DNA from: Pseudomonadota bacterium
GTDB lineage: Bacteria; Pseudomonadota; Gammaproteobacteria; Burkholderiales; Rhodocyclaceae
DNA: 56,825 nt
Direction: 5' to 3'
Assembly: GCA_018240785.1 (NCBI GenBank)
Contig: JAFEFC010000032.1
Location: forward strand, 1 to 56,825
Position 1 is the first letter of the stretch. Each line of letters begins with the position of its first letter. Made by a program: the position numbers and the translations under genes. The notes under the pieces are model-generated. The model was given only the letters and a program-made list of their open reading frames with translations, was not told where the DNA came from and ran no database searches. Positions 9,100 through 49,352 of the stretch are shown one piece after another.

Positions 9100-10204
<1,105 letters not shown>

Positions 10205-10208
<4 letters not shown>

Positions 10209-19853: not shown

Positions 19854-19912
19854 GCTGGGCTTCTCCGCAAATGGTTGAACGCGGCGAAGTCTATGCAGCG
19901 GCCCGCACGGCA

Positions 19913-19941
19913 CGAACCAACAAAAACAGATTTCCATATTC
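19913..19941 (-). promoter_or_regulatory. Candidate CysB box upstream of the first sulfate-binding protein gene
   Basis: On the plus strand the box reads CGAACCAA (19913-19920), CAAAAA, and further on CATATTC, so the gene strand carries TTTTTGTTGGTTCG. It ends 60 bp before the start codon. The same core occurs before four other sulfur operons in the window. Confidence 0.65.
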
Positions 19942-20013: not shown

Positions 20014-20030
20014 CGGATTTTCTTGGTTCG
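20014..20030 (+). promoter_or_regulatory. Candidate CysB box upstream of ssuACB
   Basis: The gene strand reads CGGATTTTCTTGGTTCG, 89-105 bp before the ssuA start. Its reverse complement continues as CGAACCAAGAAAA, two bases, CGC, one base, TTGCTTA, matching the box before the second sulfate-binding protein gene in 24 of 29 positions. It faces the sbp box in the 265-bp divergent region 19854-20118. Confidence 0.68.
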
Positions 20031-20118
20031 TGAAAATGCGCCGGATATATAGATTTGCGCCATCGACCGGCGCAAACCGGTCTCCCCGATCGAAACCGCA
20101 AAACCCGAGGACCCCACG

Positions 20119-21075
20119 ATGAATACGAACCGCCGCTTCCTGCTCAAAGGCCTGCTTGCCGCTGCCACGCTACCGATCACCCTCGCCGCCCCGCCTGCGC
20201 TGGCGGAAAGCCCGGAGATCCGCATCGGCTGGCAGAAGGGCTCGACCCTGTCCATCGTCAAGGCGCGCGGCGACCTGGAAGCGAAGCTGAAGGCCGAAGG
20301 TGTGAAGGTGACGTGGACCGAGTTCCCGGCCGGGCCGCAGATGCTGGAGGGGCTCAACGTCGGCAGCATCGACCTCGGCGTGGTCGGCGAGACGCCGCCG
20401 GTGTTCGCCCAGGCGGCCGGCGCCGACCTCGTCTATGTCGGCAACGAGCCGCCCGCGCCGCGCGCCGAGAAGGTGCTGGTGCCGAAGGAGTCGCCGATCA
20501 GGACGCTGGCCGAGCTACAGGGCAAGCGCATTGTGCTGAACAAGGGCTCGAACGTGCATTACCTGCTGGTGAAGGCACTCGAATCCGCGAAGCTGAAGTA
20601 CAGCGACGTCGAGGTGGTGTTCCTGCCGCCCGCCGACGCGCGGGCCGCGTTCGAGAAAGGCGCGGTCGACGCCTGGGTGATCTGGGACCCGTTCGGCGCC
20701 GCCGCCGAAGCGCAGCTCGGCGCGCGCATCGTCGCCGACGGCACGGGGATCGCCAACAACTACAACTTCTACATCGCCGCCCGCCCCTTCGTGCACAAGC
20801 ACCCGCAGGTGCTCGCATCGGCACTGGCGTCGATCAACGAGACCGGCCTGTGGGTGGGCAAGAACCAGAAGGAGGCGGCCGCCATCGTCGCGCCGCAGAT
20901 CGGCCTGCCGCCGGCGATCGCCGAGGTGTCGGTGTCGCGCTACGGCTACGGCGTGAAGCCGCTCACCGACGACGTGGTGAAGCACCAGCAGCAGATGGCC
21001 GACACCCTGAGCGAGCTCAAGCTCATCCCGAAGAAGCTCGACGTCGCCTCCGTGGTGTGGCGTCCCACCCGATGA
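20119..21075 (+). CDS. ssuA: Aliphatic sulfonate ABC transporter substrate-binding protein SsuA
   Basis: A 318-residue periplasmic binding protein for alkanesulfonates, first gene of ssuACB. The N terminus has a twin-arginine-like signal (NRRFLLKG) and an Ala-rich end near ALA-ESP. Family marks include IRIGWQKGSTL at the mature start, the NVGSIDLGVVGETPPVFAQAAG segment lining the cleft, GKRIVLNKGSNVHYLL, and DAWVIWDPF. A CysB-like box lies about 90-105 bp upstream, and GAGGAC precedes the ATG. The downstream permease follows after 57 bp. Confidence 0.94.
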   Translation: MNTNRRFLLKGLLAAATLPITLAAPPALAESPEIRIGWQKGSTLSIVKARGDLEAKLKAEGVKVTWTEFPAGPQMLEGLNVGSIDLGVVGETPPVFAQAAGADLVYVGNEPPAPRAEKVLVPKESPIRTLAELQGKRIVLNKGSNVHYLLVKALESAKLKYSDVEVVFLPPADARAAFEKGAVDAWVIWDPFGAAAEAQLGARIVADGTGIANNYNFYIAARPFVHKHPQVLASALASINETGLWVGKNQKEAAAIVAPQIGLPPAIAEVSVSRYGYGVKPLTDDVVKHQQQMADTLSELKLIPKKLDVASVVWRPTR

Positions 21076-21132: not shown

Positions 21133-21924
21133 ATGGCAAGCACGATTTCCTCCCCGAGCCCGCGCTGGCTCGGCCAGATCACGCCCTGGCTGGTGCCGGT
21201 GGCCATCCTCGCCGCGTGGCAGGCCGCCGCGCAGCTCGGCTGGCTGTCCACCCGCATCCTGCCGGCGCCGTCGGCGGTGCTCGCCGCCGCGTGGACGCTG
21301 GCCGCGTCCGGCGAACTGCTGACCCACCTGAAGGCGAGCTTCGCCCGCGCCGCGATCGGCTTCGCCATCGGCGGCGGCATCGGCTTCTTCTTCGGCCTCA
21401 TCAATGGCGGCTACCGCCTGGCCGAGAACCTGTTCGACACCACGCTGCAGATGGTGCGCAACGTCCCGCACCTGGCGCTGATCCCGCTGGTGATCCTGTG
21501 GTTCGGCATCGGCGAGGAAGGCAAGCTGTTCCTCGTCGCGCTCGGCGTGTTCTTCCCGATCTACCTGAACACCTTCCACGGCATCCGCGCGGTGGACGCC
21601 TCGTTGGTGGAGATGGGCCGCTCCTACGGCCTGTCGGGCTGGAGCTTGTTCCACCACGTGATCCTGCCCGGCGCCCTGCCCGGCATCCTGGTGGGGGTGC
21701 GCTACGCGCTGGGCTTCATGTGGCTGACGCTGATCGTAGCCGAGACGATCTCCGCCACCTCGGGCATCGGCTACATGGCGATGAACGCGCGCGAATTCCT
21801 GCAGACCGACATCGTCGTCGTCGCCATCCTGCTTTACGCCGTGCTCGGCAAGCTCGCCGACGTCGCCGCCCGCCTGCTCGAGCGCCGGCTGCTACGCTGG
21901 AACCCGGCTTACGCCCCTGCCTGA
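21133..21924 (+). CDS. ssuC: Aliphatic sulfonate ABC transporter permease SsuC
   Basis: A 263-residue inner-membrane permease with about six helices. The SsuC/TauC pattern is clear: [20 protein letters not shown], the EAA-like coupling loop [24 protein letters not shown], and [20 protein letters not shown]. It lies between ssuA and ssuB in the usual order; the gap to ssuB is 22 bp. It is distinct from the second permease at 33433-34275. Confidence 0.94.
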
Positions 21925-21946
21925 AATGAATGCGAAGGAGATTCCA

Positions 21947-22804
21947 ATGGGTGTCATCGACTCGAACGAAATCCGCGCCCTGACCGGCGCCCCCGCGCCC
22001 GGCGACGCGCGCAAATCCGGCGTGCGCATCCGTTTCGACGGCCTGTCCAAGGCCTATGCCGCGCGTCAGGTCCTGAACGATGTGAACCTCGACATCGACG
22101 CGGGCGAATTCGTCGCCATCGTCGGCCGCAGCGGCTGCGGCAAGAGCACGCTGCTTCGCCTGCTCGCCGGGCTGGAGCAGCCCGGCGCGGGCGGCATCGC
22201 GCTCGACGGCGAGCCGCTGCAGCAGACCCGCGACGAACTGCGCCTGATGTTCCAGGACGCGCGCCTGCTGCCGTGGCGGACGGTGGTCGACAACGTCGCG
22301 CTCGGGCTGCCCGGTTCTCGCGCCGACGTGCGCCGCGCAGCGCTTGCGGCACTGGCCGACGTCGGCCTGGCCGACCGTGCCGACGAATGGCCATCACGCC
22401 TGTCCGGTGGACAGCGCCAGCGTGTCGCGCTGGCCCGCGCTCTGGTGCACAGGCCCCGCCTGCTGCTGCTCGACGAGCCACTCGGGGCGCTCGACGCGCT
22501 GACCCGCATCGAGATGCACCAGCTCATCGAACGACTCTGGCTCGCGCAGGGCTTCACCGCGCTGCTGGTCACCCACGACGTGGCCGAGGCGGTGGCCCTG
22601 GCCGACCGCGTGCTGCTCATCGAGGACGGCAGCATCGCGCTCGACCTGCGTGTGCCGCTCGCCCGCCCGCGCGAGCGCGGCAGCGCCGCTTTCGCTGCGC
22701 TCGAGGACGACGTGCTGCGCCGCGTGCTGCAGCATCCGCCGCTCGAGGACCAGGCCGCTGCGCCTTCCACAGTCTCGTTCGGGCAGTGGCGATGGGCCGC
22801 CTGA
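21947..22804 (+). CDS. ssuB: Aliphatic sulfonate ABC transporter ATP-binding protein SsuB
   Basis: A 285-residue ATPase: Walker [11 protein letters not shown]-loop [11 protein letters not shown] (the LLPW form is typical for SsuB/TauB), signature LSGGQRQR, Walker [13 protein letters not shown] and [11 protein letters not shown] chose ATG 21947 because AAGGAG lies 7 bases before it; an ATG at 21926 lacks such a site. It is the only SsuB-type ATPase in the window, so it may also serve the second binding protein/permease pair at 33433-35257, which has none. The EAL-like gene follows after 19 bp. Confidence 0.95.
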
Positions 22805-29248: not shown

Positions 29249-30091
29249 TCACAGCCCGAACAGCCGCGCCGCGTTGCCGTACAGCACCTTGTCCAGCACC
29301 GACTCGCGAAAGCCCAGCTCGACGAAATCGCCGATCGACTGGCGGATCGGGCGGAACGGATAGGACGAGCCGAACAGGAACTGATCGGCCATGAAGCCGT
29401 TCGCCGCTTCCACATAGGGCTTGCTGCCGGCCACGAACAAATACATGTCGGGCACGAGGTGGATGTTCTCGTAGCGGAACGCGAGGCCGATGGCCTGCGC
29501 CACGTTCGGCCACCAGCCGTGGTAGCAGACGATGGGCAGTTGCGGGAAGGCGCGTGCGACGTTCGCCAGCGGCGCCGGGTCGTTGAAGCGCGGGTCGGGG
29601 GTGGTCGGCCCGGTCATCAGGAACACCGGTACGCCGACTTGCGCACACACCTCGTAGATGGGGAAATAGGCCGGATCGTCGACATGGCGCGCCGGGCTGC
29701 CGAAGCCCGGCTCGATGTCGATGCCGGCCAGGCCGAGTTGGCGGATCGCGCGTTCGGCCTCGTCCACCGCAGCACGGCCCTGGATCACCGGGTCCACGCC
29801 GGCGATGCCGAGCAGTTCGTCATGGCCGTGAGTGATGCGGTGGATCAGCTCGATCGGCAGGTGCTGCGACGGCGTGTGCCGCCCCACCACCACTGCCTTC
29901 GTCAGTCCGGCGTCGCGCACCTCGGCGAGGAAACCTTCCTGCGTGTGCGAGCGGGTGAAATGCTCGTCGCTGCCGCGGGTGCCGACGCGCCGGTTGAGCC
30001 AGCGCGCCGTGTCGTACTCGGGCGTGCCCGGCGTGGCGCCGAAGAAGTCGTGCAGGAAGGCCGGCCGGCAACGCATGTCGATGACTTTCAT
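29249..30091 (-). CDS. Amidohydrolase family 2 (ACMSD/TIM-barrel) protein coupled to ssuD
   Basis: A 280-residue metal-dependent hydrolase or decarboxylase of the amidohydrolase-2 family: N-terminal [22 protein letters not shown], a central VFLMTGPTT, the active-site His in VCYHGWWP, and the terminal [10 protein letters not shown] with [10 protein letters not shown], which is the usual NAARLFGL ending. Note the N-terminal HxH motif is replaced by MRCRP, so metal binding may differ from the classic pattern. The ATG overlaps the ssuD stop by 4 bases. A role in processing an aldehyde or acid formed by SsuD is possible but unproven. Confidence 0.82.
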
Positions 30092-31236
30092 GCCGCCTCC
30101 TTCACCGCCGCCGGCTTCTTCACCGTGCTGGCGTCGAACGGGCCACCGGTGATCACCTGGTCCTGGATCGTCACCGGCGCCTTGCCCGGCAGTAGCGGGA
30201 ACACCAGTTCGGCGAAGCGCCAGGCTTCTTCCAGATGCGGATAGCCCGACAGCACGAAGGTGTCGACGCCGAGATCGGCATATTCCTTGAGCCGGGTCGC
30301 GACCGTCTGCGGGTCGCCCACCAGCGCGGTGCCGGCGCCGCCGCGCACCAGGCCCACGCCCGCCCACAGGTTGGGACTGACCTCGAGCTTGTCGCGGCGG
30401 CCGCCGTGCAGCGCGGCCATGCGGCGCTGGCCTTCGGAATCCATCGTCGCAAAGCGCGCCTGCACCTTGGCGATGGTGTCGTCGTCGAGGCGGCTGATGA
30501 GCTTGTCGGCCTCGGCCCAGGCCTCCTCGTTCGTCTCACGCACGATCACATGCAGGCGCACGCCGAAGCGGACCTTGCGCCCCCGGCTCGCGGCTCGGGC
30601 GCGCACGTCGGCGATCTTCTCGGCCACCGCGGCAGGCGGTTCGCCCCAGGTCAGGTAGGCATCGACCTGCTCGGCCGCCAGATCGTGCGCGGCGTTCGAC
30701 GAGCCACCAAAATACAGCGGCGGGTGCGGCTTCTGCACCGCCGGGAAGAGCAGTTGCGCGCCCTGCACCTTGTGGTGTTCGCCATCGAAATCAACCTTCT
30801 CGCCCTGCAGCAGCCGACGCCAGATGGTCAGGAACTCGTTCGCCTCGTCATAGCGCGCATCGTGGTCGAGGAAGATGCCGTCGCCGGCCAGTTCCGCCGA
30901 GTCGCCGCCCGCGACCACGTTGAGCAGCAGACGGCCCTTGGTGGCCTCTTCCAGCGTGGCCGCCATGCGCGCCGCCGCCGTGGGCTTGGTCAGTGCGGTG
31001 CGCAGCGCGACCAGCAGCTTCAGCTTGCGCGTCACCGGCGCGACGCTGCCCGCCACCACCCAGGGGTCGAGGCAGCCGCTGCCGGTGGGGATCAGGATAC
31101 CGTCGTAGCCGAGGTTGTCGGCCGTCACCGCGATCTGCTGCATGTAGTCGATGGTGACCGGACGACCGGAATTGGACTTGCCGAGATAGCGGGTGTCGCC
31201 CGAGGTGGGCAGGAACCAGAAGATTTCCAGGCTCAT
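30088..31236 (-). CDS. ssuD: FMNH2-dependent alkanesulfonate monooxygenase SsuD
   Basis: A 382-residue TIM-barrel flavin monooxygenase that splits alkanesulfonates into an aldehyde and sulfite using FMNH2 and O2. Family marks: [19 protein letters not shown] at the start, [16 protein letters not shown] with the conserved active-site region Cys (Cys54 type), [45 protein letters not shown] with the conserved Arg and His, and [14 protein letters not shown] with the mobile-loop Arg. It needs reduced flavin, for which msuE nearby is the candidate. A CysB-like box lies 109-121 bp upstream. Confidence 0.95.
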
Positions 31237-31344
31237 GAATGATCCTCGCGAATGGAATGCTTGTTAGCGGTGTGGGGCAATGGCGCCGGATGAGTTTTCG
31301 TCGGCGCCGTACGAGGTCCAATTGTCCGGATATGCGGCGAGAAT

Positions 31345-31365
31345 CGAACCAAGAAAACCTGCGTA
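31345..31365 (-). promoter_or_regulatory. Candidate CysB box upstream of ssuD
   Basis: Plus strand CGAACCAAGAAAA (31345-31357), then CCTGCG; the ssuD strand reads TTTTCTTGGTTCG. It matches the ssuA and second sbp boxes exactly over those 13 bases. It lies 109-121 bp before the ssuD start. Confidence 0.65.
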
Positions 31366-35540: not shown

Positions 35541-35996
35541 CTAGCGCGTGTGCAGATCTTCGACCGCGCTGCGCGTCCGGGGCTGATCGAGGAGCAGACC
35601 GAGAAGCCTCCCGCGCTGCCGCGCGCCGAGGATCGCCCGTTCGGCAATGAGCTGGTCGATGATCATGCGCTGCTGCGCCTGCTGCAATTCGGCGATCGCG
35701 GCGCGTTCGGACTCGATGCGCTGAGGATCGAGCGTGTCGGCGAAAAGCGCCTGGATGAGTGCGGTGCGATGGCCCTCGAGCTGAGCGCTGGCGCGGTCGA
35801 ATTGCTGAAGGAATGGTCGTTCAGCCGCTTCCCAGCGCGCTCGCTGTGCTTCGTCCAGCGCCAGGATCTGATGCAGGGCGGGCTTGGGGGCGGAAGAGGC
35901 GCCCGGCCGGAGGCGGTCGAGCACCACTGCACCGATGACGCCGAGATTGAGCGCGACGGACAGCAGCAGGGCGAGGTGAAGGCTCCTGGGTTTCAT
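35541..35996 (-). CDS. Periplasmic heavy-metal sensor/CpxP-like helical protein
   Basis: A 151-residue protein with an N-terminal hydrophobic anchor or signal (LALLLSVALNLGVIGAVVL) and a Gln/Arg/Leu-rich helical body, matching the Spy/CpxP/CnrX-like group of periplasmic metal or stress sensors (LDEAQRARWEAAERPFLQQF, QQAQQRMIIDQLIAERAIL). It has no His/Cys cluster typical for CnrX. The ATG overlaps the anti-sigma stop by 4 bases, so it is the third gene of a sigma/anti-sigma/sensor operon and probably tunes the anti-sigma factor. Confidence 0.75.
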   Translation of the reverse strand: MKPRSLHLALLLSVALNLGVIGAVVLDRLRPGASSAPKPALHQILALDEAQRARWEAAERPFLQQFDRASAQLEGHRTALIQALFADTLDPQRIESERAAIAELQQAQQRMIIDQLIAERAILGARQRGRLLGLLLDQPRTRSAVEDLHTR

Positions 35997-36511
35997 CGTG
36001 AGCTCCCGATCGGGCCGCAGGCGTCGGCGCGTGGACAGAGGTTTCCCGGGGGGACGGCGTCGAACAGGCTCATCGCGACAAGCGTCACGTTCGCCGATGG
36101 CGGCCATGCTTGCGATTGTGGATCCTCGACCTGCAGCAACATCCCGCCCAGCCACACACCCATCACGAGTGCCGCCGTGGCCCCGGCATACGGCGACAAG
36201 GCGAGCGGCCAGGCCGTCAGCGGGCGGACAAGGGACAGCAGACGCGCCCGCCATCCTGTGGCCCGGGGCGCCTGCGCCGCCGGTTCAGCCTCGGCCTGCA
36301 AGCGCGCGATGACCCGTGCGCCGAGATCGACCTGAAGCGGTACGGCGGGCAGCGCAAGGAAGGCGTCATGCAATGCCCTGAGCTCGGCCAACCTGGCTGC
36401 GCAGAGCGGACAACGCGCGCTGTGAGTGAGCACTTCCGTGCGCGCTTCGGCGGGCAAGGCATCGTCCGCCAGGGCCGAGAGCGCATCGTCGGAGGGGCAG
36501 TTCCTATTCAT
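35993..36511 (-). CDS. Membrane anti-sigma factor with zinc-finger domain
   Basis: A 172-residue protein: N-terminal cytoplasmic zf-HC2-like domain with THSARCPLCAARL (His-x3-Cys-x2-Cys zinc site), a linker, one membrane helix (about 110-128, YAGATAALVMGVWLGGMLL) and a short periplasmic tail. This is the build of anti-sigma factors that hold an ECF sigma factor at the membrane. It overlaps the upstream sigma gene by 8 bp and the downstream sensor gene by 4 bp. Confidence 0.88.
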   Translation of the reverse strand: MNRNCPSDDALSALADDALPAEARTEVLTHSARCPLCAARLAELRALHDAFLALPAVPLQVDLGARVIARLQAEAEPAAQAPRATGWRARLLSLVRPLTAWPLALSPYAGATAALVMGVWLGGMLLQVEDPQSQAWPPSANVTLVAMSLFDAVPPGNLCPRADACGPIGSSR

Positions 36512-37073
36512 GGTTCGCTCCCGCCTGCGGGTGGAAATGTTCGAGGAGCGCCGCGCGGGCGCGCGCGAGACGCGACTTCACGGTGCCTTCGGCAACGCCC
36601 AGCACATTGGCCAGCTCTGCGTAGCCGAGGCCCTCGATCTCGCGCAGAAGCAGTATCTCGCGCTGCTCGGGGGCGATCCTCTGGAGCGCGCGCTCAAGCT
36701 GCGCCTGCTGCTGGCGGCTGGCGTAACGGGCTTCGGGCCCCGGTTTGGCATCGGCGATGTCCATGCCCTCCTCCAGCGGCGCGAACTGCACGCGCTGGCG
36801 GCGGCGCAGTTGGTCGAGCGCGGCGTTGCGCGCGATCTGCAGCAGCCAGGTGGAAAAGCGGGCTTCAGGGCGCCAGCCTGGCAAGCCCTGCCAGGCCTTG
36901 ACGAACACGTCCTGCGTCAGCTCCATGGCTTCGTCGCGGGTGTCGAGCATGCGCAGGATGAAGCGGAACACACGGTCCTGGTGGCGGCGCACCAGCTCGC
37001 CGAACGCGGCCATGTCGCCCGCCTGGGCGCGCGCGACATCATCGGCATCGACGTCCGGGCCGACTTCAATCAT
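36504..37073 (-). CDS. ECF (RpoE-type) sigma factor
   Basis: A 189-residue sigma-70 family protein with only regions 2 and 4. Region 2: LVRRHQDRVFRFILRMLDTRDEAMELTQDVFVKAW in part, with WRPEARFSTWLLQIARNAALDQLRRRQR. Region 4: PEQREILLLREIEGLGYAELANVLGVAEGTVKSRLARARAAL in part. It lies with a zinc-finger anti-sigma gene and a CpxP-like gene, so it probably answers envelope or metal stress. Its target promoters are not visible in this window. Confidence 0.93.
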   Translation of the reverse strand: MIEVGPDVDADDVARAQAGDMAAFGELVRRHQDRVFRFILRMLDTRDEAMELTQDVFVKAWQGLPGWRPEARFSTWLLQIARNAALDQLRRRQRVQFAPLEEGMDIADAKPGPEARYASRQQQAQLERALQRIAPEQREILLLREIEGLGYAELANVLGVAEGTVKSRLARARAALLEHFHPQAGANHE

Positions 37074-40087: not shown

Positions 40088-40402
40088 TTGGCTCTCTCCG
40101 CGGACGCGATCGGATTTTCTTGCATGGTGCGCAGGGGCGTTTCGCGCCGCCTCGCCCACCGCGAGACGGCTTCCATCGTCATGTCGAAAGCTTAGTTTGT
40201 GGGCACCGCAACATGAACGAAGGATTTCTGCTTTCCTTTCCACGTTGGCGCCAATGCGTGATCGACGGCAGGCCCGCAGCTTTGGCCCGGCCGCGACCGG
40301 GCTTGCGGGCGGTCACGCCGACGCTGACGATCCTCAAGACCGACCGCGCCGCGGCTGTGCTACCTTTCCTGCAGCGCCGTGTCCCGCCAGGAGAGAAAGC
40401 TC
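40088..40402. other. Divergent intergenic region between sfnR and the orphan peptidase-like gene
   Basis: These 315 bases hold no convincing gene. The only recognisable element is CGGATTTTCTTG at 40111-40122, identical to 12 bases of the ssuA box but without the adjoining GTTCG, so I do not call it a site. I see no sigma-54 pair here. Confidence 0.45.
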
Positions 40403-41515
40403 ATGTCGAACTACGATCGTTTCTGGGATCTTCACGTACTGGCACGCGACGGTCACTACGATTTCGCCAGCCAGATCCGGGAACAGGCCGAACATCAGGC
40501 GGCGAAGCAGACGGCAGACTCGCTCAAGCGATTCCTGCTGAGCCCGGTGGACAGCAAGCACAAGTGCATCATCACGCCCGACGAGCTCGCCGCCGTCGAT
40601 GACCTGCCGGACGGCTATGTCGCAAGCGCCGTCAGCATCTCCGACCTCGAGAACGGCGCCGTCAGCGTGACCGCGCAGAATCTCGTCCGATGGATCAACG
40701 ACCCCGGGCACACCGGCAAGCTTCGCGTCAATGCCCACGGCGACGGCGAGGGTGCCATCTGGATGAGCGAGCAGACGGGCGTGAGCTCGTCCGTTTCCGC
40801 CAATCTGCTGATCACGTGGCTCGCCAGGAACGGTCTGTCGCCTGTGGCGAACAACGCGCGGGTGAAATCGCTCGCGGGGAACAAGAATTCGAAGGGCCTG
40901 GTGACGATCGCGCTGGCGGCCTGCATGGGCGCTCGCTACATGACGACCGGCGCAACCCTGGGCGCGGCCAGCAGCACGGCCGCCCCTTCATCGGCGGTGG
41001 CGCTGATGGTTTCGGCACTGCGGCAGGCCGGCATCACCGGTGTCGAAGTGACCGGCAGCAACGAAATCGTCATGTCGGTCGATGGCACGCTGTACCGCGA
41101 CACGCAGCCCGCTCCCCAGACGCGCGGCGCTGCGGACAAGGCCTGGGAGGAGGGCCAGCAGGACGGGACCAGGCTGTGGACGATCGAGATCCCGGCCGGC
41201 TGGGATGTCAGATCATTCCTGTTCTCCCGTGGCGGCGTCATCAACATTCCGATGGACTACGCCATCAAGGGCGTTGCGCACAACCGCGGCAGGCACCCCT
41301 CGGGGGGCTGGATCCTCACCCACAATGGCGATGGCAGCACGGTCGATGTCTCCGAAGGATGGATCGTCGATGAGGCAAGAAGGACGATCTCCCCGCCGCT
41401 GGGCTGGCACGTGAAGTCGCATGGAAGGGGCAAGGGCGGAACCCTGATCGCGACGAGTCCGGGACATGCGGAACCGCTGGCACACTCTCCGTTCAAGATC
41501 CGCGAGATCTCCTGA
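40403..41515 (+). CDS. Unrecognised protein with a clan CD (caspase/C80-like) His/Cys pattern
   Basis: A 370-residue protein without signal peptide or membrane segment. I do not recognise a named family. What stands out is a hydrophobic strand followed by His-Gly (KLRVNAHGDGEGAIW, His112) and, about 60 residues later, a second strand followed by Ala-Cys (VTIALAACMGARYM, Cys174). In clan CD cysteine peptidases (caspases, C80/MARTX CPD, gingipains, separase, CHAT) the catalytic His and Cys sit in just these places. The C-terminal 110 residues (GWDVRSFLFSRGGVINIPMDYAIKG onward, in part) look like a separate small domain with repeated His-Asn/Gly loops. AGGAGAGAAA precedes the ATG. It stands alone between sulfur operons. 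Confidence 0.6.
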   Translation: MSNYDRFWDLHVLARDGHYDFASQIREQAEHQAAKQTADSLKRFLLSPVDSKHKCIITPDELAAVDDLPDGYVASAVSISDLENGAVSVTAQNLVRWINDPGHTGKLRVNAHGDGEGAIWMSEQTGVSSSVSANLLITWLARNGLSPVANNARVKSLAGNKNSKGLVTIALAACMGARYMTTGATLGAASSTAAPSSAVALMVSALRQAGITGVEVTGSNEIVMSVDGTLYRDTQPAPQTRGAADKAWEEGQQDGTRLWTIEIPAGWDVRSFLFSRGGVINIPMDYAIKGVAHNRGRHPSGGWILTHNGDGSTVDVSEGWIVDEARRTISPPLGWHVKSHGRGKGGTLIATSPGHAEPLAHSPFKIREIS

Positions 41516-41732
41516 CCGCCGCATCGTCCGCCCTCACGTCCCGACTCTTCCTTGCCCGCACGCGCCCGGCCAGCACCGCCGCGCGTCGCTTTCCAGCGGG
41601 CCTGCCCCTTCGCTTCTGCAACGTGCCCCCGGCCGAAAGGCGCGGCAGTTCGCCACCTGCTTCGGCTGGCTGAGAAGAGGCCACAGTGTGGACGGTGGCC
41701 CTCCTCGTTGGCACATCAATAGTCGCGGCTGC

Positions 41733-43598
41733 TCAACGCCTCGCCCTGGCCGACGCCAGCCGCTGCAGCACGGCGACCAGCGTGTCGACTTCCTCGCAGG
41801 TGTTGTAGAACGCCAGCGAAGGCCGCACCGTGGCCTCGACACCAAAGCGGCGCAGGATGGGCTGCGCGCAATGATGACCGGAGCGCACCGCAATGCCTTC
41901 CTCGTTGAGCGCCCTGCCGACTTCCTCCGTGGTGTAGCCGTCGAGCACGAAGGAGAGCACGCTGGCCTTGTCCTTCGCAGTGCCGATCAGCTTGAGCCCC
42001 GGGACGGTCTGCAGCCCGCGCGTCGCGTACAGAAGCAGGTCGTGCTCGTAGCGCGCGATGTTCTCCATGCCGATGCGCTCGACGTAGTCGATCGCCGCCC
42101 CCAGGCCGACCGCGTCGGCAATGTTGCCGGTGCCCGCCTCGAAGCGGGTCGGCGGACCGTGGTAGATCGTTTTCTCGAAAGTGACGTCGGCGATCATGTT
42201 GCCGCCCCCCTGCCATGGCGGCATGTCTTCGAGCACCTCGCGCTTGCCATACACCGCACCGATGCCGGTCGGAGCGAACACCTTGTGCCCCGAGAACACG
42301 AAGAAGTCGGCGTCGATGTCCTGCACGTTCACCCGCATGTGCGACACCGACTGCGCACCATCGACCAGCGCCCTGGCACCCGCGCGATGCGCCATCGCGA
42401 CGATCTCCTTCACCGGCACGACCGTACCGAGCGCGTTCGACACCTGGGTCACCGCGACGATCCGGGTGCGATCGTTGAGCAGCTTCTGGTACCCGTCGAG
42501 CAGCACCTGGCCCGAGTCATCGACCGGGATGACCCGCAGCTTCGCGCCCCTGGCCGCGGCGAGCTGCTGCCAGGGCACGATGTTGGCGTGATGTTCGAGG
42601 TGGGAGACGATGATCTCGTCGCCCTCGCCCACGTTCTGCCAGCCCCAGGTCTTGGCGATCAGGTTGATGCCCTCGGTGGCGCCGCGCACGAAGATGATCT
42701 CCTCCGCCGACGACGCGCCGAGAAAGCGCGCCACTTTGCCGCGCGCGCCTTCGTACGCGTCGGTCGCCCGCGCCGCAAGTTCGTGCGCAGCGCGGTGGAT
42801 GTTCGAGTTCTCGTGCTGGTAGAAATACGTCAGCCGGTCGATGACGGCGCGCGGCTTTTGCGTGGTGGCGGCGTTGTCGAACCAGATCAGCGGCTTGCCG
42901 TTGACGCGTTCCTGCAGGATCGGAAAGTCGCGCCGCACCGCATGGACATCGAACGGCGGATGCGCGCCCTGTACCACGGCCGGCACCGGCTGTACGGCCG
43001 CCGGATCGAGGAAGTAGAACACCGGTGCCGACGACGGAGCCGGCTCGGCCGCGCGCTCGCCCGAGTCGAGTCCGGCGAGCAGCTCGCGCAAGGCCCCGTC
43101 GCCCGGCAGGCCGAAGGACTGCGCGGTGGCGCGGTCTTCCGGCGCTGCGGCGGTGGCTTCCCGGGCGGACGGAGAGGTGCTCGCCTCGCCGAGGAAGTAG
43201 TAGGGCGACGGCGACGGACCGCCGAGCGGCGCACCGCCAGACTGCGGCCCGTCCAGCGGCGTCACCTGTGGCAGCGCGGCGGCATAGGCCTCGGGCACGC
43301 CGTAGGCCGGGTTCGCGGCACGACCGCCTGCGGGCGCACGATCGACGACAGCCTCCGGCGCGCCGCTCGGGGTCCCTGCTGCCGGGGCCAGTGCGGGGGC
43401 ACGATTGCCCAGCGCCAGTTCCGGCTGCGCCGGCTGAGGCGGACTGAACGGTAGCCGCAGGTCGGGGCTGCCGTTGGGCAGCGCCGCGAAGAACTCGCCG
43501 GCGAGCTGCGCCAGCACCGCGACGTCGGGCAAGCCTGCAGGTGCGCCGCCGAGGGCGGCCACCCCGTCACTTGTAGGTATCGAGTGCGGAGTAGTCAT
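41733..43598 (-). CDS. Family 2A encapsulin cargo cysteine desulfurase with long disordered N-terminal extension
   Basis: A 621-residue SufS/CsdA-type PLP cysteine desulfurase. The catalytic domain starts near residue 215 (FDVHAVRRDFPIL): WFDNAATTQKP, HLEHHANIVPW, the PLP Asp in LVDGAQSVSH, Schiff-base Lys439 in FSGHKVFAPTG and active-site Cys577 in SGHHCAQP. It converts cysteine to alanine and releases sulfur as persulfide. The first 214 residues are Pro/Ala/Gly-rich and contain two similar aromatic motifs, YYFLGE (133-138) and FYFLDP (194-199), and an N-terminal amphipathic LAQLAGEFFAALP; this is the cargo-loading extension of encapsulin-linked desulfurases. The ATG lies 32 bp inside the shell gene, so the two are translationally linked. 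Confidence 0.95.
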   Translation of the reverse strand: MTTPHSIPTSDGVAALGGAPAGLPDVAVLAQLAGEFFAALPNGSPDLRLPFSPPQPAQPELALGNRAPALAPAAGTPSGAPEAVVDRAPAGGRAANPAYGVPEAYAAALPQVTPLDGPQSGGAPLGGPSPSPYYFLGEASTSPSAREATAAAPEDRATAQSFGLPGDGALRELLAGLDSGERAAEPAPSSAPVFYFLDPAAVQPVPAVVQGAHPPFDVHAVRRDFPILQERVNGKPLIWFDNAATTQKPRAVIDRLTYFYQHENSNIHRAAHELAARATDAYEGARGKVARFLGASSAEEIIFVRGATEGINLIAKTWGWQNVGEGDEIIVSHLEHHANIVPWQQLAAARGAKLRVIPVDDSGQVLLDGYQKLLNDRTRIVAVTQVSNALGTVVPVKEIVAMAHRAGARALVDGAQSVSHMRVNVQDIDADFFVFSGHKVFAPTGIGAVYGKREVLEDMPPWQGGGNMIADVTFEKTIYHGPPTRFEAGTGNIADAVGLGAAIDYVERIGMENIARYEHDLLLYATRGLQTVPGLKLIGTAKDKASVLSFVLDGYTTEEVGRALNEEGIAVRSGHHCAQPILRRFGVEATVRPSLAFYNTCEEVDTLVAVLQRLASARARR

Positions 43599-44505
43599 GG
43601 TACTTGCCCACTTCAACGTCATCGAGCACCGCCAGCGCATCGTCGGAATGCACGACCAGCGAGCAGTAAAGCGAGATCAGGTAGGACGCGATCGCGTTGC
43701 GGCTGATGCCCATGAAGCGCACCGACAGCCCCGGACCCTGTTCGCCGGCGACCCCCGGCTGGAACAGTCCGGTCACGCCCTGACGCTTCTCGCCGACGCG
43801 CAGCAGCAGGATCTTGGTCTTGCCGTCCTCGACCGGCACCTTGTCCGAGGGCACCAGCGGAATGCCGCGCCAGGTCAGGAACTGCGAGCCGAACAGCGAC
43901 ACGGTCGGGGGCGGGACGCCGCGGCGGGTGCATTCACGGCCGAAGGCGGCGATGCCCAGCGGGTGCGTCAGGAAGAAGGCCGGCTCCTTCCACACCTTGG
44001 TCAGCAGATCGTCGAGGTCGTCCGGAGTCGGCGCACCGGTGAGAGTGGAAAGCCGCTGTTCGTCGGCGACGTTGGCGAGCAGGCCGTAGTCCGGATTGTT
44101 GATCAGCTCGGATTCCTGGCGCTCCTTGACGGTCTCGACCGTGAGGCGGAGCTGCTCCTTGATCTGGTCGTGCGGACTGCTGTAGAGGTCCGAGATCCGG
44201 GTATGAACGTCGAGCACGGTAGTGACGGCGTTCAGGAAATACTCGCGCGGCTGCTCCTCGTAATCGACAAAGATCTGCGGCAGCTCGCCCTCGCCGTCGC
44301 GCTGCGAGCAGCTCACCCTCACGTCCTGCGGATTCTTGACCTTGTTCAGGCGATAGATGCCGGCCTCGACCGGCAACCATTGCAGGAAGTGCACCAGCCA
44401 GCGTGGCGTGATGGTCGCGAGTTGAGGAACGGTCTTGGTGGCATTCGCAAGCTGGCGCGCGGCGGTATCGCCAAGCGCGTGATGCACCGTGGTTTCTGCA
44501 GCCAT
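43567..44505 (-). CDS. Family 2A encapsulin shell protein (SrpI-like)
   Basis: A 312-residue HK97-fold protein matching the SrpI group of encapsulins: LANATKTVPQLATITPRWLVHFLQWLPVEAGIYRLNKV in part near the start, then EYFLNAVTTVLDVHTRISDLYS, GIAAFGRECTRRGVPPPTV, SLFGSQFLTWRGIPLVPSDKVPV and MGISRNAIASYLISLYCSLVV. Many copies assemble into an icosahedral protein compartment; family 2A shells hold a cysteine desulfurase and can store sulfur. AAGGAG precedes the ATG. It lies downstream of epsC after a strong hairpin and overlaps the cargo gene by 32 bp. The whole operon has a CysB-like box, so it is expected to respond to sulfur supply. Confidence 0.95.
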   Translation of the reverse strand: MAAETTVHHALGDTAARQLANATKTVPQLATITPRWLVHFLQWLPVEAGIYRLNKVKNPQDVRVSCSQRDGEGELPQIFVDYEEQPREYFLNAVTTVLDVHTRISDLYSSPHDQIKEQLRLTVETVKERQESELINNPDYGLLANVADEQRLSTLTGAPTPDDLDDLLTKVWKEPAFFLTHPLGIAAFGRECTRRGVPPPTVSLFGSQFLTWRGIPLVPSDKVPVEDGKTKILLLRVGEKRQGVTGLFQPGVAGEQGPGLSVRFMGISRNAIASYLISLYCSLVVHSDDALAVLDDVEVGKYHDYSALDTYK

Positions 44506-44570
44506 GATGACTCCTTGACCCTGCGTAGGCAGGGGTTATGAAAAATTCGTCTGAAAGGATCTGGGGCGGG

Positions 44571-44590
44571 CCGGCGCCGCCCGGCGCCGG
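44571..44590. terminator. GC hairpin between epsC and the encapsulin shell gene
   Basis: Perfect 8-bp inverted repeat CCGGCGCC (44571-44578) and GGCGCCGG (44583-44590) with loop GCCC, 8 bp after the epsC stop and 66 bp before the shell start. Without a T tract it is more likely a partial terminator or an mRNA processing/stabilising element that sets shell versus enzyme level. Confidence 0.5.
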
Positions 44591-44598
44591 GGGAGCAG

Positions 44599-45564
44599 CT
44601 AGATGAAGTCGCCGCCGCCCTGCACCGGCTCGTGCTGCAGACTGGCCTGGGTGACGTGGCTGCCGGGCGGCACGCTGCGCGTCAGCCATACGTTGCCGCC
44701 GATGCTCGAGCCGCGTCCGATCGTGATGCGACCGAGCACGGTCGCTCCGGCGTAGATCACCACGTCGTCCTCGATGATCGGATGGCGCGCCCCACCCTTG
44801 GCGATCCCGCCATCATTCGTGCTGGCAAAGCGCCGTGCCCCCAGCGTCACCGCCTGGTAGAGGCGCACGCGATTGCCGATGATCGCGGTCTCGCCGATGA
44901 CGACGCCGGTGCCGTGGTCGATGAAGAAACCGGAACCGATCTCGGCGCCGGGATGGATGTCGATGCCCGTCTCGGAGTGCGCGATCTCCGACAGGATGCG
45001 GGCCGCGAGGGGCGCACCGAGCCGATGGAGCGCATGAGCGAGGCGGTGATGGATGACTGCCAGCACGCCCGGGTAGCACAGCAGCACCTCATCCACGCTG
45101 CGTGCAGCGGGATCGCCATCGAAGGCGGCCTGGACGTCCTTGTCGAGCAGCATGCGCAACCCGGGCAACCCGCGGGCGAACGCGCGCACGATCTCGGTCG
45201 CACGTGCCTCGAGGGCGGCCCGATCGTCGTCCTGGGGAGCGAGTTGCCCGACCAGTTCGAGCCGCACCTGATGCAGAAGACCATTCAGTGCCGTGTCCAG
45301 CGTGCGACCGACGAAGAAGTCCTCGCTCTCCTTGGTCAGATCGCGTGGCCCGAGACGCATCGGAAACAACGCGCCGCTCAAGCCGTTGACGATCTCGCGC
45401 AAGGCGTCACGGGAGGGAAATTCGCGCGGGCCGAAATCGCGCTTGCGTTGGCGGGCGTCGCGCCAGCGCTCGCGCACCTCGCGCAATTGCCAGACGATCC
45501 GGCCCAGATCCCAGCCCGCCGCGGCGCGCTCGGAGGTTTCGGTATCCGAGAGCGGGATGTTCAT
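44599..45564 (-). CDS. epsC: Serine O-acetyltransferase EpsC (SrpH-like)
   Basis: A 321-residue enzyme making O-acetylserine from serine and acetyl-CoA, the acceptor for sulfide in cysteine synthesis. The first 160 residues form the helical domain; then come the left-handed beta-helix marks: [52 protein letters not shown] in part, with the catalytic His in [11 protein letters not shown], and hexapeptide repeats to [20 protein letters not shown]. Its ATG overlaps the cysK-like stop by 4 bases, so both halves of cysteine synthesis are coupled. In Synechococcus the same trio (SrpG, SrpH, SrpI) is sulfur-regulated. Confidence 0.93.
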
Positions 45565-46538
45565 GCGGCGATCCCCGCCTGATCGAACAGGCCTTCGAAC
45601 AGTACGGAGCTGAGGTAGCGCTCGCCCGAGTCGGGCAGGATCACGACGATGGTCTTGCCCGCATTCTCGGGTTTACGCGCCAGTCTTGCCGCCACCGCGG
45701 CAGCAGCACCGCACGAAAGCCCGGACAGGATGCCCTCTTCGCGCGCCAGCCGGCGCGCATACGTCACGGCATCCTCGTTGCTGACCTGCTCGATGCTGTC
45801 GACAAGTGACAGATCCAGCACGCCCGGAACGAAGCCGGCGCCGATCCCCTGGATCTTGTGCGGCCCCGGCTTGAGGGGTTCGCCCTCGCGCGTCTGCGTC
45901 AGCACCGGGCTGGCCGCGGGCTCCACCGCGACCACTTCGATCGCCTTGCCCCTGGTGTGTTTGATGTAACGGGACACCCCGGTGATCGTTCCGCCTGTCC
46001 CGACGCCCGACACGAAGATGTCGATCGACCCGTCGGTATCGTTCCAGATCTCGGGCCCGGTCGTGGCCTCGTGGATGGCAGGGTTCGCCGGATTCTTGAA
46101 CTGCTGCAGCAGCACGTACCTGTCGGGATCGGACGCGGCGATTTCCTCGGCCTTCGCCACCGCGCCGCTCATGCCCCTGGCGCCCTCGGTCAGCACCAGC
46201 TTCGCGCCGAAGGCAACCAGCAGCTTGCGACGTTCGACACTCATCGTCTCGGGCATGGTCAAGGTGAGCGGAATCCCCTTTGCCGCGGCGACGAAAGCGA
46301 GGGCGATGCCGGTATTGCCGCTGGTCGGCTCGACAAGCTCCTTGCCGGAACCGAGCAGGCCGCGCGCTTCGGCATCCTTGATCATTGCGGCACCGATGCG
46401 GCACTTGACCGAATAGGCCGGGTTGCGGCCCTCGATCTTGGCCAGCACGGTGGCTTTGGCGCCGTCGATGATGCGGTTGAGCCGAACAAGCGGCGTGTGG
46501 CCGATCGATTCGGCGTTGTCGGTGTACCAATGGGACAT
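45561..46538 (-). CDS. cysK: Cysteine synthase (O-acetylserine sulfhydrylase, SrpG/CysK-like)
   Basis: A 325-residue PLP enzyme joining sulfide to O-acetylserine. Seen: [13 protein letters not shown], Schiff-base Lys in [11 protein letters not shown], the substrate loop [17 protein letters not shown], the phosphate loop [10 protein letters not shown], and [17 protein letters not shown] precedes the ATG at 46538. It follows the rhodanese gene after 47 bp and overlaps epsC. It may form a complex with EpsC and feeds cysteine to the encapsulated desulfurase. Confidence 0.94.
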
Positions 46539-46585
46539 GATGGATCCTGTCGGAAGTGGTTGACGAAAGCCCTCGGCGGGCGCGC

Positions 46586-47095
46586 TCAGTCCTGCACCCA
46601 GGACAGGCCGGCGAACCGCCAGCCGTTGAAGGTGCCGCGCCTCTGCCGCTCGTCGAGATCTCCCTCGAAGCCTTCGAGCACATTGAAGACGTTGTGGAAG
46701 CCCGCCTTGGCCGCCGCTTCCGCGGCCAGCGCCGAACGCTTGCCGCTGCGGCACAGAAGCAGCACCACGGCGGCCTTGCCGGTCTTGCATTCCAGCTCGC
46801 GCACGAAGCGCGGGTTGCGGGTCAGGCTGGTGCCGCTGGCCCAAGCCACGTGCAGTGAGCCGGGCACGTGGCCGACGAACTTGCGCTCCTCGGCACTGCG
46901 TACGTCGACGAGCGCCGCCTCGTGCGCGCTGATCAACTGCCAGGCCTCGTTCGGCGTGACGCCGCCGGCATAGGGCAGGCCCAGCTCGGCGGCGCGCTGG
47001 CGCGCCCGCGCCAGGATGGGATGATCCGCTGCGGCCGACGCCGGGGTCGCTGCAGGCTGTTCGGATTCGCGGATGGCAAAGGCTGTCTCGGTCAT
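46586..47095 (-). CDS. Rhodanese-domain sulfurtransferase, first gene of the encapsulin operon
   Basis: A 169-residue protein: a variable N-terminal 35 residues, then one rhodanese domain with [24 protein letters not shown] and the active-site loop LLCRSGKRS (persulfide Cys about 114). Rhodaneses carry sulfane sulfur between donors and acceptors; here it may move sulfur to or from the encapsulated store. AGGAGGCCCGCC precedes the ATG. The next gene, cysK-like, is 47 bp downstream. A CysB-like box lies 82-95 bp upstream. Confidence 0.92.
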
Positions 47096-47176
47096 GGCGG
47101 GCCTCCTGGGATACGGGTTTTCTGGTTGGGCGTTGCGTGTTCAGGTCTTGAAAGTTACGCGCAGGTGACGCACCGG

Positions 47177-47191
47177 CGAACCAATAAAAAA
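47177..47191 (-). promoter_or_regulatory. Candidate CysB box upstream of the encapsulin sulfur operon
   Basis: Plus strand CGAACCAA (47177-47184), then TAAAAAA; the gene strand reads TTTTTTATTGGTTCG. It lies 82-95 bp before the rhodanese start and is the only recognised control site for the whole operon. Confidence 0.65.
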
Positions 47192-47316
47192 TCAGATCTA
47201 ATGCAGGAAAACGGGATAGATCCGGCCGGTGAACACGCATGAAGACGCCGCGCTGAAAGAGCGGCCTGGCCATCGGTCGGCGCGTCGTGAATCGAGACGC
47301 CGTCGCCGCCCGTCAA

Positions 47317-47997
47317 TCAGAACTCGCGTCCCGTCAGGCGATTCAGCGTGAAGCGGGTGTGATGCCGGATCCGCGCCAGGGCGCCATGTCGGCCGCGCTG
47401 AGAATTCGCCTGGCTCGAGATGGCACCCAGGGGGACGTCGTCATGCACACGCTGCATGGCGACCAGCAGGTCTAGGCCGAACGGCCAGGGACCGTAGCCG
47501 GATTCGGTGTTGATGTGTCCGGCATCGCCAATGTCCATCAGCCGACTGCCCCAGCGCTCGGCCCAGAATGCCGCGCTGTCGAACTTCACCCAGGGATCGT
47601 TGCGACTCGCGACCACGATGCTGGGACACGCCAGCGGCGTGTCGGGCAGCCAGGCCGCCACCGAGCTGCCTTCGTCGGCCATTTCGCGCAGGCCGAAGGG
47701 ACCGAAGCGCTGCGGATCGGCAGGTGCGACGAGCAGCGCGCCCGCCACCTTCTCTGGCCGATCGGCAGCCGCCACCACGCTGGCAAGACAGCCATAGCTG
47801 TGCGCCACCAGAAACACCGCATGCGGCGCGGCATCGATTTCGTCGCGCACCGCACCCGCCCAGCGCGCGAGGACCGGCTGCTCCCAGTCGATGCCGCGCA
47901 CCCGCTGCGCGCCGGCCAGCCGATGTTCGATCCAGGTCTGCCAGTGCAGCGGACCGCTGCCGTGAAAGCCGGGGACGATCAGGGTCGTGTGCTGCAC
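47317..47997 (-). CDS. Alpha/beta hydrolase of the RBBP9/YdeN family
   Basis: A 226-residue serine hydrolase: oxyanion region IVPGFHGSGPLHWQTW, nucleophile Ser in AHSYGCLASVV (replacing the usual GxSxG with A-H-S-Y-G, as is normal in this family), acid region SRNDPWVKFD and catalytic His in GDAGHINTESGYG. I place the start at the GTG at 47997, with GAGG 5 bases upstream. It follows the molbindin gene after 11 bp, so it belongs to the second sbp operon. The substrate is unknown. Confidence 0.87.
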   Translation of the reverse strand: MQHTTLIVPGFHGSGPLHWQTWIEHRLAGAQRVRGIDWEQPVLARWAGAVRDEIDAAPHAVFLVAHSYGCLASVVAAADRPEKVAGALLVAPADPQRFGPFGLREMADEGSSVAAWLPDTPLACPSIVVASRNDPWVKFDSAAFWAERWGSRLMDIGDAGHINTESGYGPWPFGLDLLVAMQRVHDDVPLGAISSQANSQRGRHGALARIRHHTRFTLNRLTGREF

Positions 47998-48008: not shown

Positions 48009-48224
48009 TCAGAGCGTGGCGATGGACACTTCGGTCGATTTCACCAGCGCAACGACGTCCGAGCCGGGCTTGAGCCCGAGTTCGTCCACCGAGCGCGTGG
48101 TGATGACCGAAGTCACGATGCCCGACGACGTCTGCACGTCGACTTCGCTGACGACGTCGCCGCGGATGATTTCCTTCACCTTGCCGCGAAACTGGTTGCG
48201 TACGTTGATGGCCTGGATGGTCAT
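48009..48224 (-). CDS. Molbindin-type oxyanion-binding protein (TOBE/Mop domain)
   Basis: A 71-residue protein made of one Mop/TOBE domain: INVRNQFRGKVKEIIRGDVVSEVDVQTSSGIVTSVITTRSVDELGL in part, then GSDVVALVKSTEVSI. Molbindins bind molybdate or other tetrahedral oxyanions as oligomers, for storage or buffering. GGAGG precedes the ATG; a GTG two codons upstream is too close to it. It lies between sbp (30 bp gap) and the hydrolase (11 bp gap). Confidence 0.9.
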   Translation of the reverse strand: MTIQAINVRNQFRGKVKEIIRGDVVSEVDVQTSSGIVTSVITTRSVDELGLKPGSDVVALVKSTEVSIATL

Positions 48225-48254: not shown

Positions 48255-49262
48255 TTACCTGGCGTAGATCTGGTCGAACACGCCGCCGTCGCCGAAGTGC
48301 GTCTTCTGCACCTTCTGCCAGCCGCCGAGCTCGTCGATGGTGAAGGTCTTCACCTTCGGGAAGCGGGCCACATCCCTGGGATCGGCAAGTTCGGGCTTGA
48401 TCGGCCGGTAGTAGTGGCGGGCGGCGATCGTCTGGCCGACCGGCGAGTACAGGTATTCGAGGTAGGCCTGGGCGACCTTCTCGGTACCGCGCCTCTTCGC
48501 CACGCCGTCGACCACGGTGACCGGCGGTTCGGCCAGGATCGTCACCGAGGGCACGACGATCTCGAACTTGTCGGGGCCGAGTTCGTTCACCGAAAGGAAG
48601 GCTTCGTTCTCCCACGCCAGCAGCACGTCGCCGATGCCGCGCTGCACGAAGGTGTTGGTCGCCCCGCGCGCACCCGAATCGAGCACCGGCACGTGCCTCA
48701 ACAGTTCGCCGACGAACTCGCGCGCCTTCGCCTCGCTGCCACCCGGCTGCTTGAGCGCGTAGCCCCAGGCCGCAAGGTAATTCCAGCGCGCGCCGCCCGA
48801 GGTCTTCGGGTTTGGCGTGATCACTTCGACCCCGGGCTTGACCAGGTCGCCCCAGTCCTTGATGCCTTTGGGATTGCCCTTGCGCACCAGGAAGACGATG
48901 GTCGAGGTATAGGGCGAGCTGTTGTTCGCCAGCCGCTTCTGCCAGTCGGCGGGGATCTTCTTGCCGATCTGGGCGACCTCGTCGATGTCGTAGGCCAGCG
49001 CGAGCGTGACGACGTCGGCTTCCAGCCCGTCGATCACCGCGCGCGCCTGCTTGCCCGAGCCGCCGTGGGACTGCTTGATGGTGACGTCCTCGCCCGTCTT
49101 CCCTTTCCAGTACTTGGCGAATTCCGGGTTGAAGTCCTGATACAGCTCGCGCGTCGGATCGTAGGAGACGTTGAGCAGCGTGGTGGCCGCCTGGGCGTTG
49201 CCGACGAGCCCGGCGGCAAGGGCGAAGGCCAGCAGGGTGCGGCGGGTGGCGTTGAAACGCAT
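48255..49262 (-). CDS. sbp: Periplasmic sulfate-binding protein (second copy)
   Basis: A 335-residue sulfate/thiosulfate-binding protein, signal peptide cleaved near AQA-ATT. The family segments match those of the first copy: [16 protein letters not shown], the ligand loop [46 protein letters not shown] and [13 protein letters not shown]. It leads an operon with a molbindin and an alpha/beta hydrolase and has the best CysB-like box of the window 62-91 bp upstream. Which copy serves CysTWA, or whether one handles thiosulfate or another oxyanion, is not readable. Confidence 0.94.
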
Positions 49263-49322
49263 GACGTTCTCTCCAGAGGTCGTTGGTTGATGGCGAAAAT
49301 CTATCGCGCCAGCCGAATCCAC

Positions 49323-49352
49323 CGAACCAAGAAAAAACGCATTGCTTATTCA
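49323..49352 (-). promoter_or_regulatory. Candidate CysB box upstream of the second sulfate-binding protein gene
   Basis: Plus strand CGAACCAAGAAAAAACGC (49323-49340) followed by ATTGCTTATTCA. Its first part equals the ssuA and ssuD boxes and its second part (49332-49352) matches the cysT box in 19 of 21 positions, so it ties the two forms of the motif together. It lies 61-90 bp before the ATG at 49262. Confidence 0.7.

Follow-up and report, generated by a model that had tools for sequence, protein, structure and literature searches.

A family 2A encapsulin operon of a Thauera-like bacterium and a predicted promoter element common to it and sulfur-uptake genes

The encapsulin operon and its products

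Contig JAFEFC010000032.1 of assembly GCA_018240785.1 (C25 in our numbering), analysed over its whole length of 56,825 bases and referred to here as the window, represents 1.2% of a 4.71-Mb genome and carries on its minus strand a run of genes for a rhodanese, a cysteine synthase (CysK), a serine O-acetyltransferase (SAT), a family 2A encapsulin shell protein and its cysteine desulfurase cargo. The host is a Thauera-like betaproteobacterium, and the shells 94–95% identical to that of the window include those of Thauera sp. Sel9 and of two named relatives with the same gene arrangement, T. butanivorans and T. linaloolentis. What is new here is regulatory, namely a predicted promoter element that is common to the encapsulin operon and to genes of sulfur uptake.

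All five open reading frames (ORFs) are open and intact. The rhodanese and cysK genes are separated by 47 bp and the SAT and shell genes by 93 bp, while cysK overlaps the SAT gene by 4 bp and the shell gene overlaps the cargo gene by 32 bp; these coordinates agree with the single run and the two overlaps given in an initial annotation made from the sequence. A consensus scan of positions 41400–47400 returned no sigma-70-like promoter; terminator-like sites numbered one, compared to a mean of 3.2 in shuffles. An ORF of 378 amino acids (aa) (40379–41515, plus strand), convergent with the cargo gene, matches nothing in Pfam or NCBIfam at E 0.001.

The shell protein (43567–44505, minus strand, 312 aa), the only one encoded in the genome, passes the family 2A shell model NF041162 (533.6 bits, cut-off 380, E=1e-160) and the SrpI-like Pfam family PF19307 (332.3 bits, cut-off 22.8). 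The family 2B model is also passed, narrowly and with a lower score (406.6 bits, cut-off 400), but SrpI-like is the sole Pfam domain present and the inserted cyclic-nucleotide-binding domain, a feature of family 2B, is absent. The best solved-structure match is PDB 8t6r (E=7.5e-170), and SrpI (6x8m/6x8t) matches at E=8.7e-149. By these models and matches the shell is a family 2A encapsulin, as the initial annotation had it, with an HK97 fold and icosahedral assembly predicted from homology to solved shells. The annotation had also allowed for a better score to a phage capsid family, and this did not occur. The HK97-type ancestry does yield PHROGs matches, but they are weak (best 1.9e-4, and one major head protein at 0.001), and we rejected the shell as a phage or prophage capsid protein when these were set against its E-value to the curated model. 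The adjoining cargo gene passes a curated cargo model of its own, sulfur genes surround the shell gene and no phage gene was found among the window ORFs scanned, which leaves a capsid origin exceedingly improbable.

The cargo desulfurase (41733–43598, minus strand, 621 aa) scores 927.1 bits against NF041166, the model for family 2A cargo cysteine desulfurases (cut-off 800), and 562.4 bits against TIGR01979 (cut-off 475.1). It has SGHK (Lys439) and RSGHHC (Cys577) motifs, which we take to be catalytic, as we do the CRSGKR and SVK motifs of the rhodanese and CysK, respectively. The SufS-like domain starts at about residue 216, and the targeting-type N-terminal extension before it, noted at the outset together with the two residues, contains the motifs LAQLAGEFF (29–37), YYFL (133–136) and FYFL (194–197). 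By patterns of our own making, 67 of the extensions of 68 relatives have an aromatic motif, 33 have two and 31 fit a strict version of the first motif. The aminotransferase class V family has several places in the genome, the best on contig C29, with the operon cargo second.

At the upstream end of the run, the rhodanese-like sulfurtransferase (46586–47095, minus strand, 169 aa) matches PF00581 (59.4 bits) and PDB chain 8w14_A, named Rhodanese (E=5.7e-55), and its CRSGKR loop holds Cys115. CysK, a cysteine synthase A (45561–46538, minus strand, 325 aa), reaches 454.9 bits with TIGR01139 (cut-off 350.95) and has the SVK motif (Lys45). The SAT (44599–45564, minus strand, 321 aa) is of the EpsC type, passing NF041874 (165.4 bits, cut-off 150) and matching PDB chain 3f1x_A (E=3.4e-73); it stays under the cut-off of the general cysE model TIGR01172 (172.8 versus 210.65 bits), for which the genome has one place above cut-off, on contig C14. 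The CysK/CysM family is represented by three places above cut-off, one of them the operon gene. As the genome thus holds further CysK/CysM-type and SAT genes, those of the operon are additional copies and not the sole makers of cysteine. The SAT tail, GGGDFI, ends in isoleucine, and in a comparison of 106 SAT tails the same last residue was seen in 17 of the 28 distinct SATs that come with an operon cysK, compared to 12 of the 74 that do not (Fisher p=3.5e-5, kinship ignored). The pattern is as if docking of SAT to CysK mattered where the genes are linked; we keep it as an observation only.

A promoter element shared with sulfur-uptake genes

The element was derived from aligned regions upstream of the rhodanese gene and of sbp1, a sulfate-binding protein gene, in the window and up to seven relatives. 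The block common to the two sets is T-rich, continues with TTGGTTCG and is followed by a TA-N3-T hexamer 21 bp after TTGGTT; some relatives' copies before sbp1 are degenerate. Before the encapsulin operon the putative element reads TTTATTGGTTCG-N19-TAACTT (47152–47188, minus strand), and a second copy precedes the sbp-TOBE-hydrolase genes (49298–49334, minus strand). TTGGTT ends where a -35 element would start. The initial annotation had spoken of a CysB-like box and had given no coordinates for it; what can now be placed on the map is this conserved element.

When the pattern TTTNTTGGTTCG-N19-TANNNT was searched in the whole genome with at most one mismatch, it was found at four places, all of them exact and all in the window, compared to none for a reversed control. 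These places precede the encapsulin operon, two sulfate-binding protein genes and a sulfonate ABC transporter. Two of them, which played no part in deriving the pattern, form a divergent pair, with 19888–19924 (minus strand) before the second sulfate-binding protein gene (ORF 18837–19937, likely start near 19853) and 20019–20055 (plus strand) before the transporter. Allowing two mismatches raised the count to 10 places, against three in the control. One is a weaker copy with two mismatches before the alkanesulfonate monooxygenase gene ssuD (31320–31356, minus strand), and none of the five other two-mismatch places was assigned to a sulfur gene; as the control has three two-mismatch matches as well, these five may be due to chance. 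None of 100 shuffles of the window contained five or more element matches at up to three mismatches. We know of no published match for the element, and open-licence papers, judged from titles and the starts of abstracts, included none evidently on a TTGGTT element with CysB; within the open-licence papers there was also nothing on an encapsulin together with CysB.

Conservation of the element

Across the 29 genomes of the genus, 37 places with at most one mismatch were found in 21 genomes, compared to six places in the control. All 23 exact places in the 28 other genomes precede sbp1, sbp2, an ssuA-like gene, cysT or the rhodanese gene of an encapsulin operon, one of the ssuA-like genes being recognised by a match of merely 30% identity, and 24 of the 28 places fetched (exact or with one mismatch) precede the tested sulfur genes. 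The shell is present in six of the 29 genomes and the element occurs in 16 that have no shell. The element is therefore not specific to encapsulins, and the operon looks as if it had been plugged into an existing uptake regulon. In one genome with no shell match (G307), the island genes are present and there is no encapsulin operon between the hydrolase gene and a sigma-54 activator gene.

Beyond the genus, the regions upstream of encapsulin operons, 127 after removal of identical ones and of those shorter than 300 bp, were searched with a looser pattern (TTGGTT-N21-TANNNT or CATAGT), and 36 of them contain it. This amounts to 0.84 per kb, whereas the background has 28 matches in 4019 strand-kb (0.007 per kb), and the 36 include relatives from Thauera, Zoogloea, Methyloversatilis and Paraburkholderia. 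In ten genomes of the family, each of the nine exact places is followed by an sbp, rhodanese or cysK gene. Two genomes of the Zoogloea group (g37), G232 and G094, carry the modules on different contigs, one as sbp-hydrolase-[element]-cysK-SAT and the other as [element]-rhodanese-shell-cargo, and G232 additionally has [element]-sbp2-cysT-cysW-cysA-regulator. No other finding, in our view, speaks as strongly for a joint control of cysteine making and the cage as these split modules with a common element.

Several results weigh on the other side. In the window, cysT has no preceding copy at up to two mismatches. Four one-mismatch places in the genus (L213, L225, L233 and L236, the first three inspected as ORF lists only) are not directly followed by any of the tested genes. 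Of the encapsulin upstream regions, 91 out of 127 do not contain even the looser pattern, and the search of ten family genomes gave 29 places of which 16 precede sbp, rhodanese or cysK, with nine in the reversed control. Finally, the two Azospira genomes G081 and G020, together with G042, have the operon and only one poor one-mismatch match to the element. G309, which has a shell and neither the element, sbp1 nor the Cbl-like regulator gene described below, was considered as a natural control and set aside: its shell contig (C269, locus L305), at 3900 bp as long as that of L105, shares 97.7% identity with the window and breaks off short of the operon start, which makes a binning error possible. 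As a separate observation, similar proteins of 274–277 aa start 50–60 bp after the element at L225 (genome G311 of the genus) and at L330 and L331 in the two g37 genomes.

Composition of the operon among relatives

Shell matches, every one above the cut-off, were obtained in 74 of 297 genomes of the family. The operon tallies require a flank of 3.5 kb or more upstream and of 2.3 kb or more downstream of the shell gene, which leaves out 14 of the 74 family loci and 11 of the 80 named loci, the two sets overlapping in genomes. The tallies count matches to the window proteins only, on the strand of the shell and, except for the cargo, upstream of it, so that diverged or downstream partners are missed; at L071–L073, for example, a SAT match lies downstream and hence outside the tallies. 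Within these bounds, the 60 family loci comprise rhodanese-SAT-shell-desulfurase (21), the same with cysK between rhodanese and SAT, as in the window (12), rhodanese-shell-desulfurase (7), shell-desulfurase (7), cysK-SAT-shell-desulfurase (6), SAT-shell-desulfurase (4) and cysK-shell-desulfurase (3). The 69 named loci fall into the first of these arrangements (52), the second (9) and the third (8), with no other order. Shell followed by desulfurase was seen in all 129 loci, which is partly a product of choosing loci with enough flank. In Azospira genome G081, locus L078 has a second desulfurase-type match about 2 kb past the first, behind the shell.

The window operon is thus a fuller form of a widely spread operon, with CysK as its less usual part. 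An ancestral place for cysK was considered and is not supported, as a quick shell tree needs 15 gains or losses of the gene, at least seven of them forced by well-supported branches (shuffled mean 26.9). All five genes of the make-store-release unit proposed initially are present; relatives often have no operon cysK, and such a complete unit in one operon is one of several arrangements. The same proposal had been called unexpected, and that part has to be lowered. In the available text of one survey, SAT and rhodanese are the most enriched accessory genes of family 2A desulfurase operons, 813 such systems are counted in Proteobacteria, and the reasoning on cysteine supply and a rhodanese acceptor is already given (PMC8346489). 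The available text of another paper describes SrpI and its cargo as induced by sulfate starvation in Synechococcus elongatus (PMC8049743).

The surrounding sulfur-scavenging island

The operon had been placed in a sulfur-scavenging island, and genes for the uptake and use of sulfate, sulfonates and dimethylsulfone do surround it: two sulfate-binding proteins, CysTWA, SsuA, SsuD and the dimethylsulfone monooxygenase SfnG, as well as an acyl-CoA-dehydrogenase-like gene that matches DszC best among the NCBIfam models, at a score under the cut-off. Just upstream of the operon on the same strand, sbp1 (48255–49262, minus strand; NF008022, 500.5 bits) is taken to start at the ATG after the element and is followed by genes for a small TOBE-domain protein (48009–48224, minus strand; PF03459, 67 bits) and a serine hydrolase of the PF06821 family (47317–47997, minus strand; 188.4 bits). 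This hydrolase gene travels with sbp1 in several genera, and both g37 genomes have a copy beside the Cbl-like gene with an element of its own. By profile matches, the sulfonate transporter consists of SsuA (20119–21075), a permease (21133–21924) and an ATPase (21926–22804), all on the plus strand, and ssuD occupies 30088–31236 on the minus strand. The sulfate transporter genes cysA (9096–10208), cysW (10205–11143) and cysT (11110–11949) form one minus-strand run with a regulator gene. Near this run, a plus-strand gene (6537–8120) encodes a protein that combines a phosphonate-type substrate-binding domain with a GGDEF diguanylate cyclase domain, possibly a sensor of an oxyanion or of organosulfur compounds. 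An ECF-type sigma factor gene adjoining one for a Heavy-metal resistance (PF13801) protein (35541–37073, minus strand) also lies inside the island.

A candidate regulator

The regulator gene of the cysTWA run (8158–9099, minus strand) encodes a LysR-type protein that passes the CysB-family model NF009327 (458.6 bits, cut-off 402). One other protein in the genome does so, on contig C35, and the two are 52% identical. The window protein scores higher with the Cbl model than with the CysB model (441 versus 371.5 bits), and the C35 protein the reverse (337 versus 422.2). In Escherichia coli, the signal for Cbl is adenosine 5'-phosphosulfate (APS), and its targets include ssu and tau genes. Among the 29 genus genomes, the element and a Cbl-like gene (at least 83% identity) are both present in 18 and both absent from seven, with the element alone in three and the regulator alone in one; this is agreement in 25 of 29 genomes (Fisher p=5e-4). 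We suggest that the Cbl-like regulator of the island is probably the activator of the element, for which it is our candidate.

Two findings speak against this assignment. The window regulator stays under both equivalog cut-offs (Cbl NF009324, 441 versus 491; CysB, 371.5 versus 436), as the C35 protein likewise reaches neither; we describe it by these scores as CysB-family and Cbl-like, and do not file it as Cbl. Moreover, sbp1 is missing from the same seven genomes that have neither the element nor the Cbl-like gene, so that the co-occurrence does not single out the regulator. Because it is confounded by sbp1, we rejected this co-occurrence as a demonstration that the element is read by the Cbl-like protein.

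Proposed function and alternative explanations

We think it quite likely, from the gene content and the shared element, that the family 2A operon forms a sulfur-handling nanocompartment which is switched on together with the genes for scavenging sulfate and organosulfur compounds. The idea of control by sulfur limitation was already present in the initial annotation; the sequence evidence for it is much stronger now, with an element common to the operon, the sbp genes and the sulfonate transporter, and activation of the operon under sulfur limitation is likely. At low sulfate and low APS, the Cbl-like regulator would activate these promoters through the TTGGTT element. Incoming sulfide would be fixed as cysteine by the operon SAT and CysK, and this cysteine is likely to feed the encapsulated desulfurase, which would strip off the sulfur and leave sulfane or elemental sulfur in the cage. 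From published relatives we infer that the sulfur would be held there, the window cage thus acting as a sulfur store, and the rhodanese is a plausible way out. The building of a store under limitation could be understood if short pulses of scavenged sulfur were held inert, with free cysteine and sulfide kept low.

In a more general form, which we favour with somewhat more reserve, the encapsulin of the Thauera/Zoogloea group (and, by a shared core element, of Paraburkholderia relatives) would be part of a sulfate-starvation regulon of the Cbl type, to which the uptake of sulfate and sulfonates is subject as well. The cysK-SAT and rhodanese-shell-cargo modules would be co-controlled even on different contigs, and the cage would be the end station of a scavenge-fix-hold pathway and not a store filled in times of plenty. 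A loose link to sulfur limitation would in this way become a precise prediction at the promoter level outside cyanobacteria, with a candidate regulator named and with G307, which has the island and no encapsulin, and the split genomes of the Zoogloea group as natural controls. It also bears on what a cell might gain by building a store when sulfur is scarce.

The element could instead be bound by the housekeeping CysB of contig C35 or by another factor, the Cbl-like gene of the island being a bystander. CysB-type genes (51–54% identity to the window regulator) are found in genomes with and without the element, CysB is present in complete genomes wherever the element is, and three genomes (G308, G312 and G313) have the element with no Cbl-like gene. 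These three are 77–86% complete, however, and genomes with CysB and no Cbl-like gene have no element, though sbp1 is missing from them too. The Cbl-like gene moreover has its place in the cysTWA run, and in the Zoogloea group it follows an sbp2-cysT-cysW-cysA run with the element in front. We regard the bystander explanation as rather unlikely.

The readings of the cage as a channel for delivery or as a safety valve share the same regulation with storage. For delivery, the shell would shield the SufS-like desulfurase so that only its partner rhodanese receives the persulfide, for example on the way to Fe-S clusters, as Andreas and Giessen propose in the available text of their paper (PMC8346489). 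Most of the tallied loci, namely 40 of 60 in the family and all 69 named ones, have a rhodanese gene next to those for shell and cargo, and starvation control would suit delivery as well as storage. On the other hand, no rhodanese was detected upstream in 20 of the 60 family loci (the tallies would not have picked up a diverged gene or one lying downstream), and the available text of a later work classes desulfurase encapsulins as sulfur storage (PMC12407261); delivery in place of storage therefore seems to us unlikely. We are similarly doubtful that the cage drains cysteine as a protection from toxicity when resupply after starvation floods the cell with reduced sulfur. The shared element fits such a valve equally, and the operon copies of SAT and CysK would raise cysteine flux, but a pure drain would need no cysteine-making enzymes of its own. 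Sulfur storage under starvation control remains the explanation we prefer.

Comparison with known systems

Benisch et al. reportedly described in 2024 a sulfur-storing encapsulin of Acinetobacter baumannii, and PDB 8t6r, the best structure match of the window shell, reportedly belongs to that system. The likeness to the control of ssu and tau genes by Cbl and CysB in E. coli lies in a CysB-family regulator that scores higher with the Cbl model and sits in an island with ssu-type genes; the host is another one, and the window protein is under the Cbl cut-off and a putative binder of the element.

The S. elongatus SrpI system (Nichols et al. 2021, PMC8049743) resembles that of the window in its homologous shell, in a desulfurase cargo whose N-terminal extension is long, and in a link to starvation. 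The extension motifs in the available text of that paper, LARLANEFFS and AASPYYFLDG, have as their counterparts LAQLAGEFF and the pair YYFL and FYFL in the window. Unlike in the SrpI system as the available text presents it, cysK, SAT and rhodanese genes are part of the same run here, and the link to starvation, a published induction for SrpI, is for the window operon, in a Thauera-like betaproteobacterium, a prediction from the shared promoter element. Compared to the operons of Andreas and Giessen 2021 (PMC8346489), as far as the available text goes, the gene set of the window is equal apart from cysK: cysteine synthase is named there only as the next enzyme of the pathway, whereas in the window, as in 12 of the 60 family loci, its gene lies inside the run.

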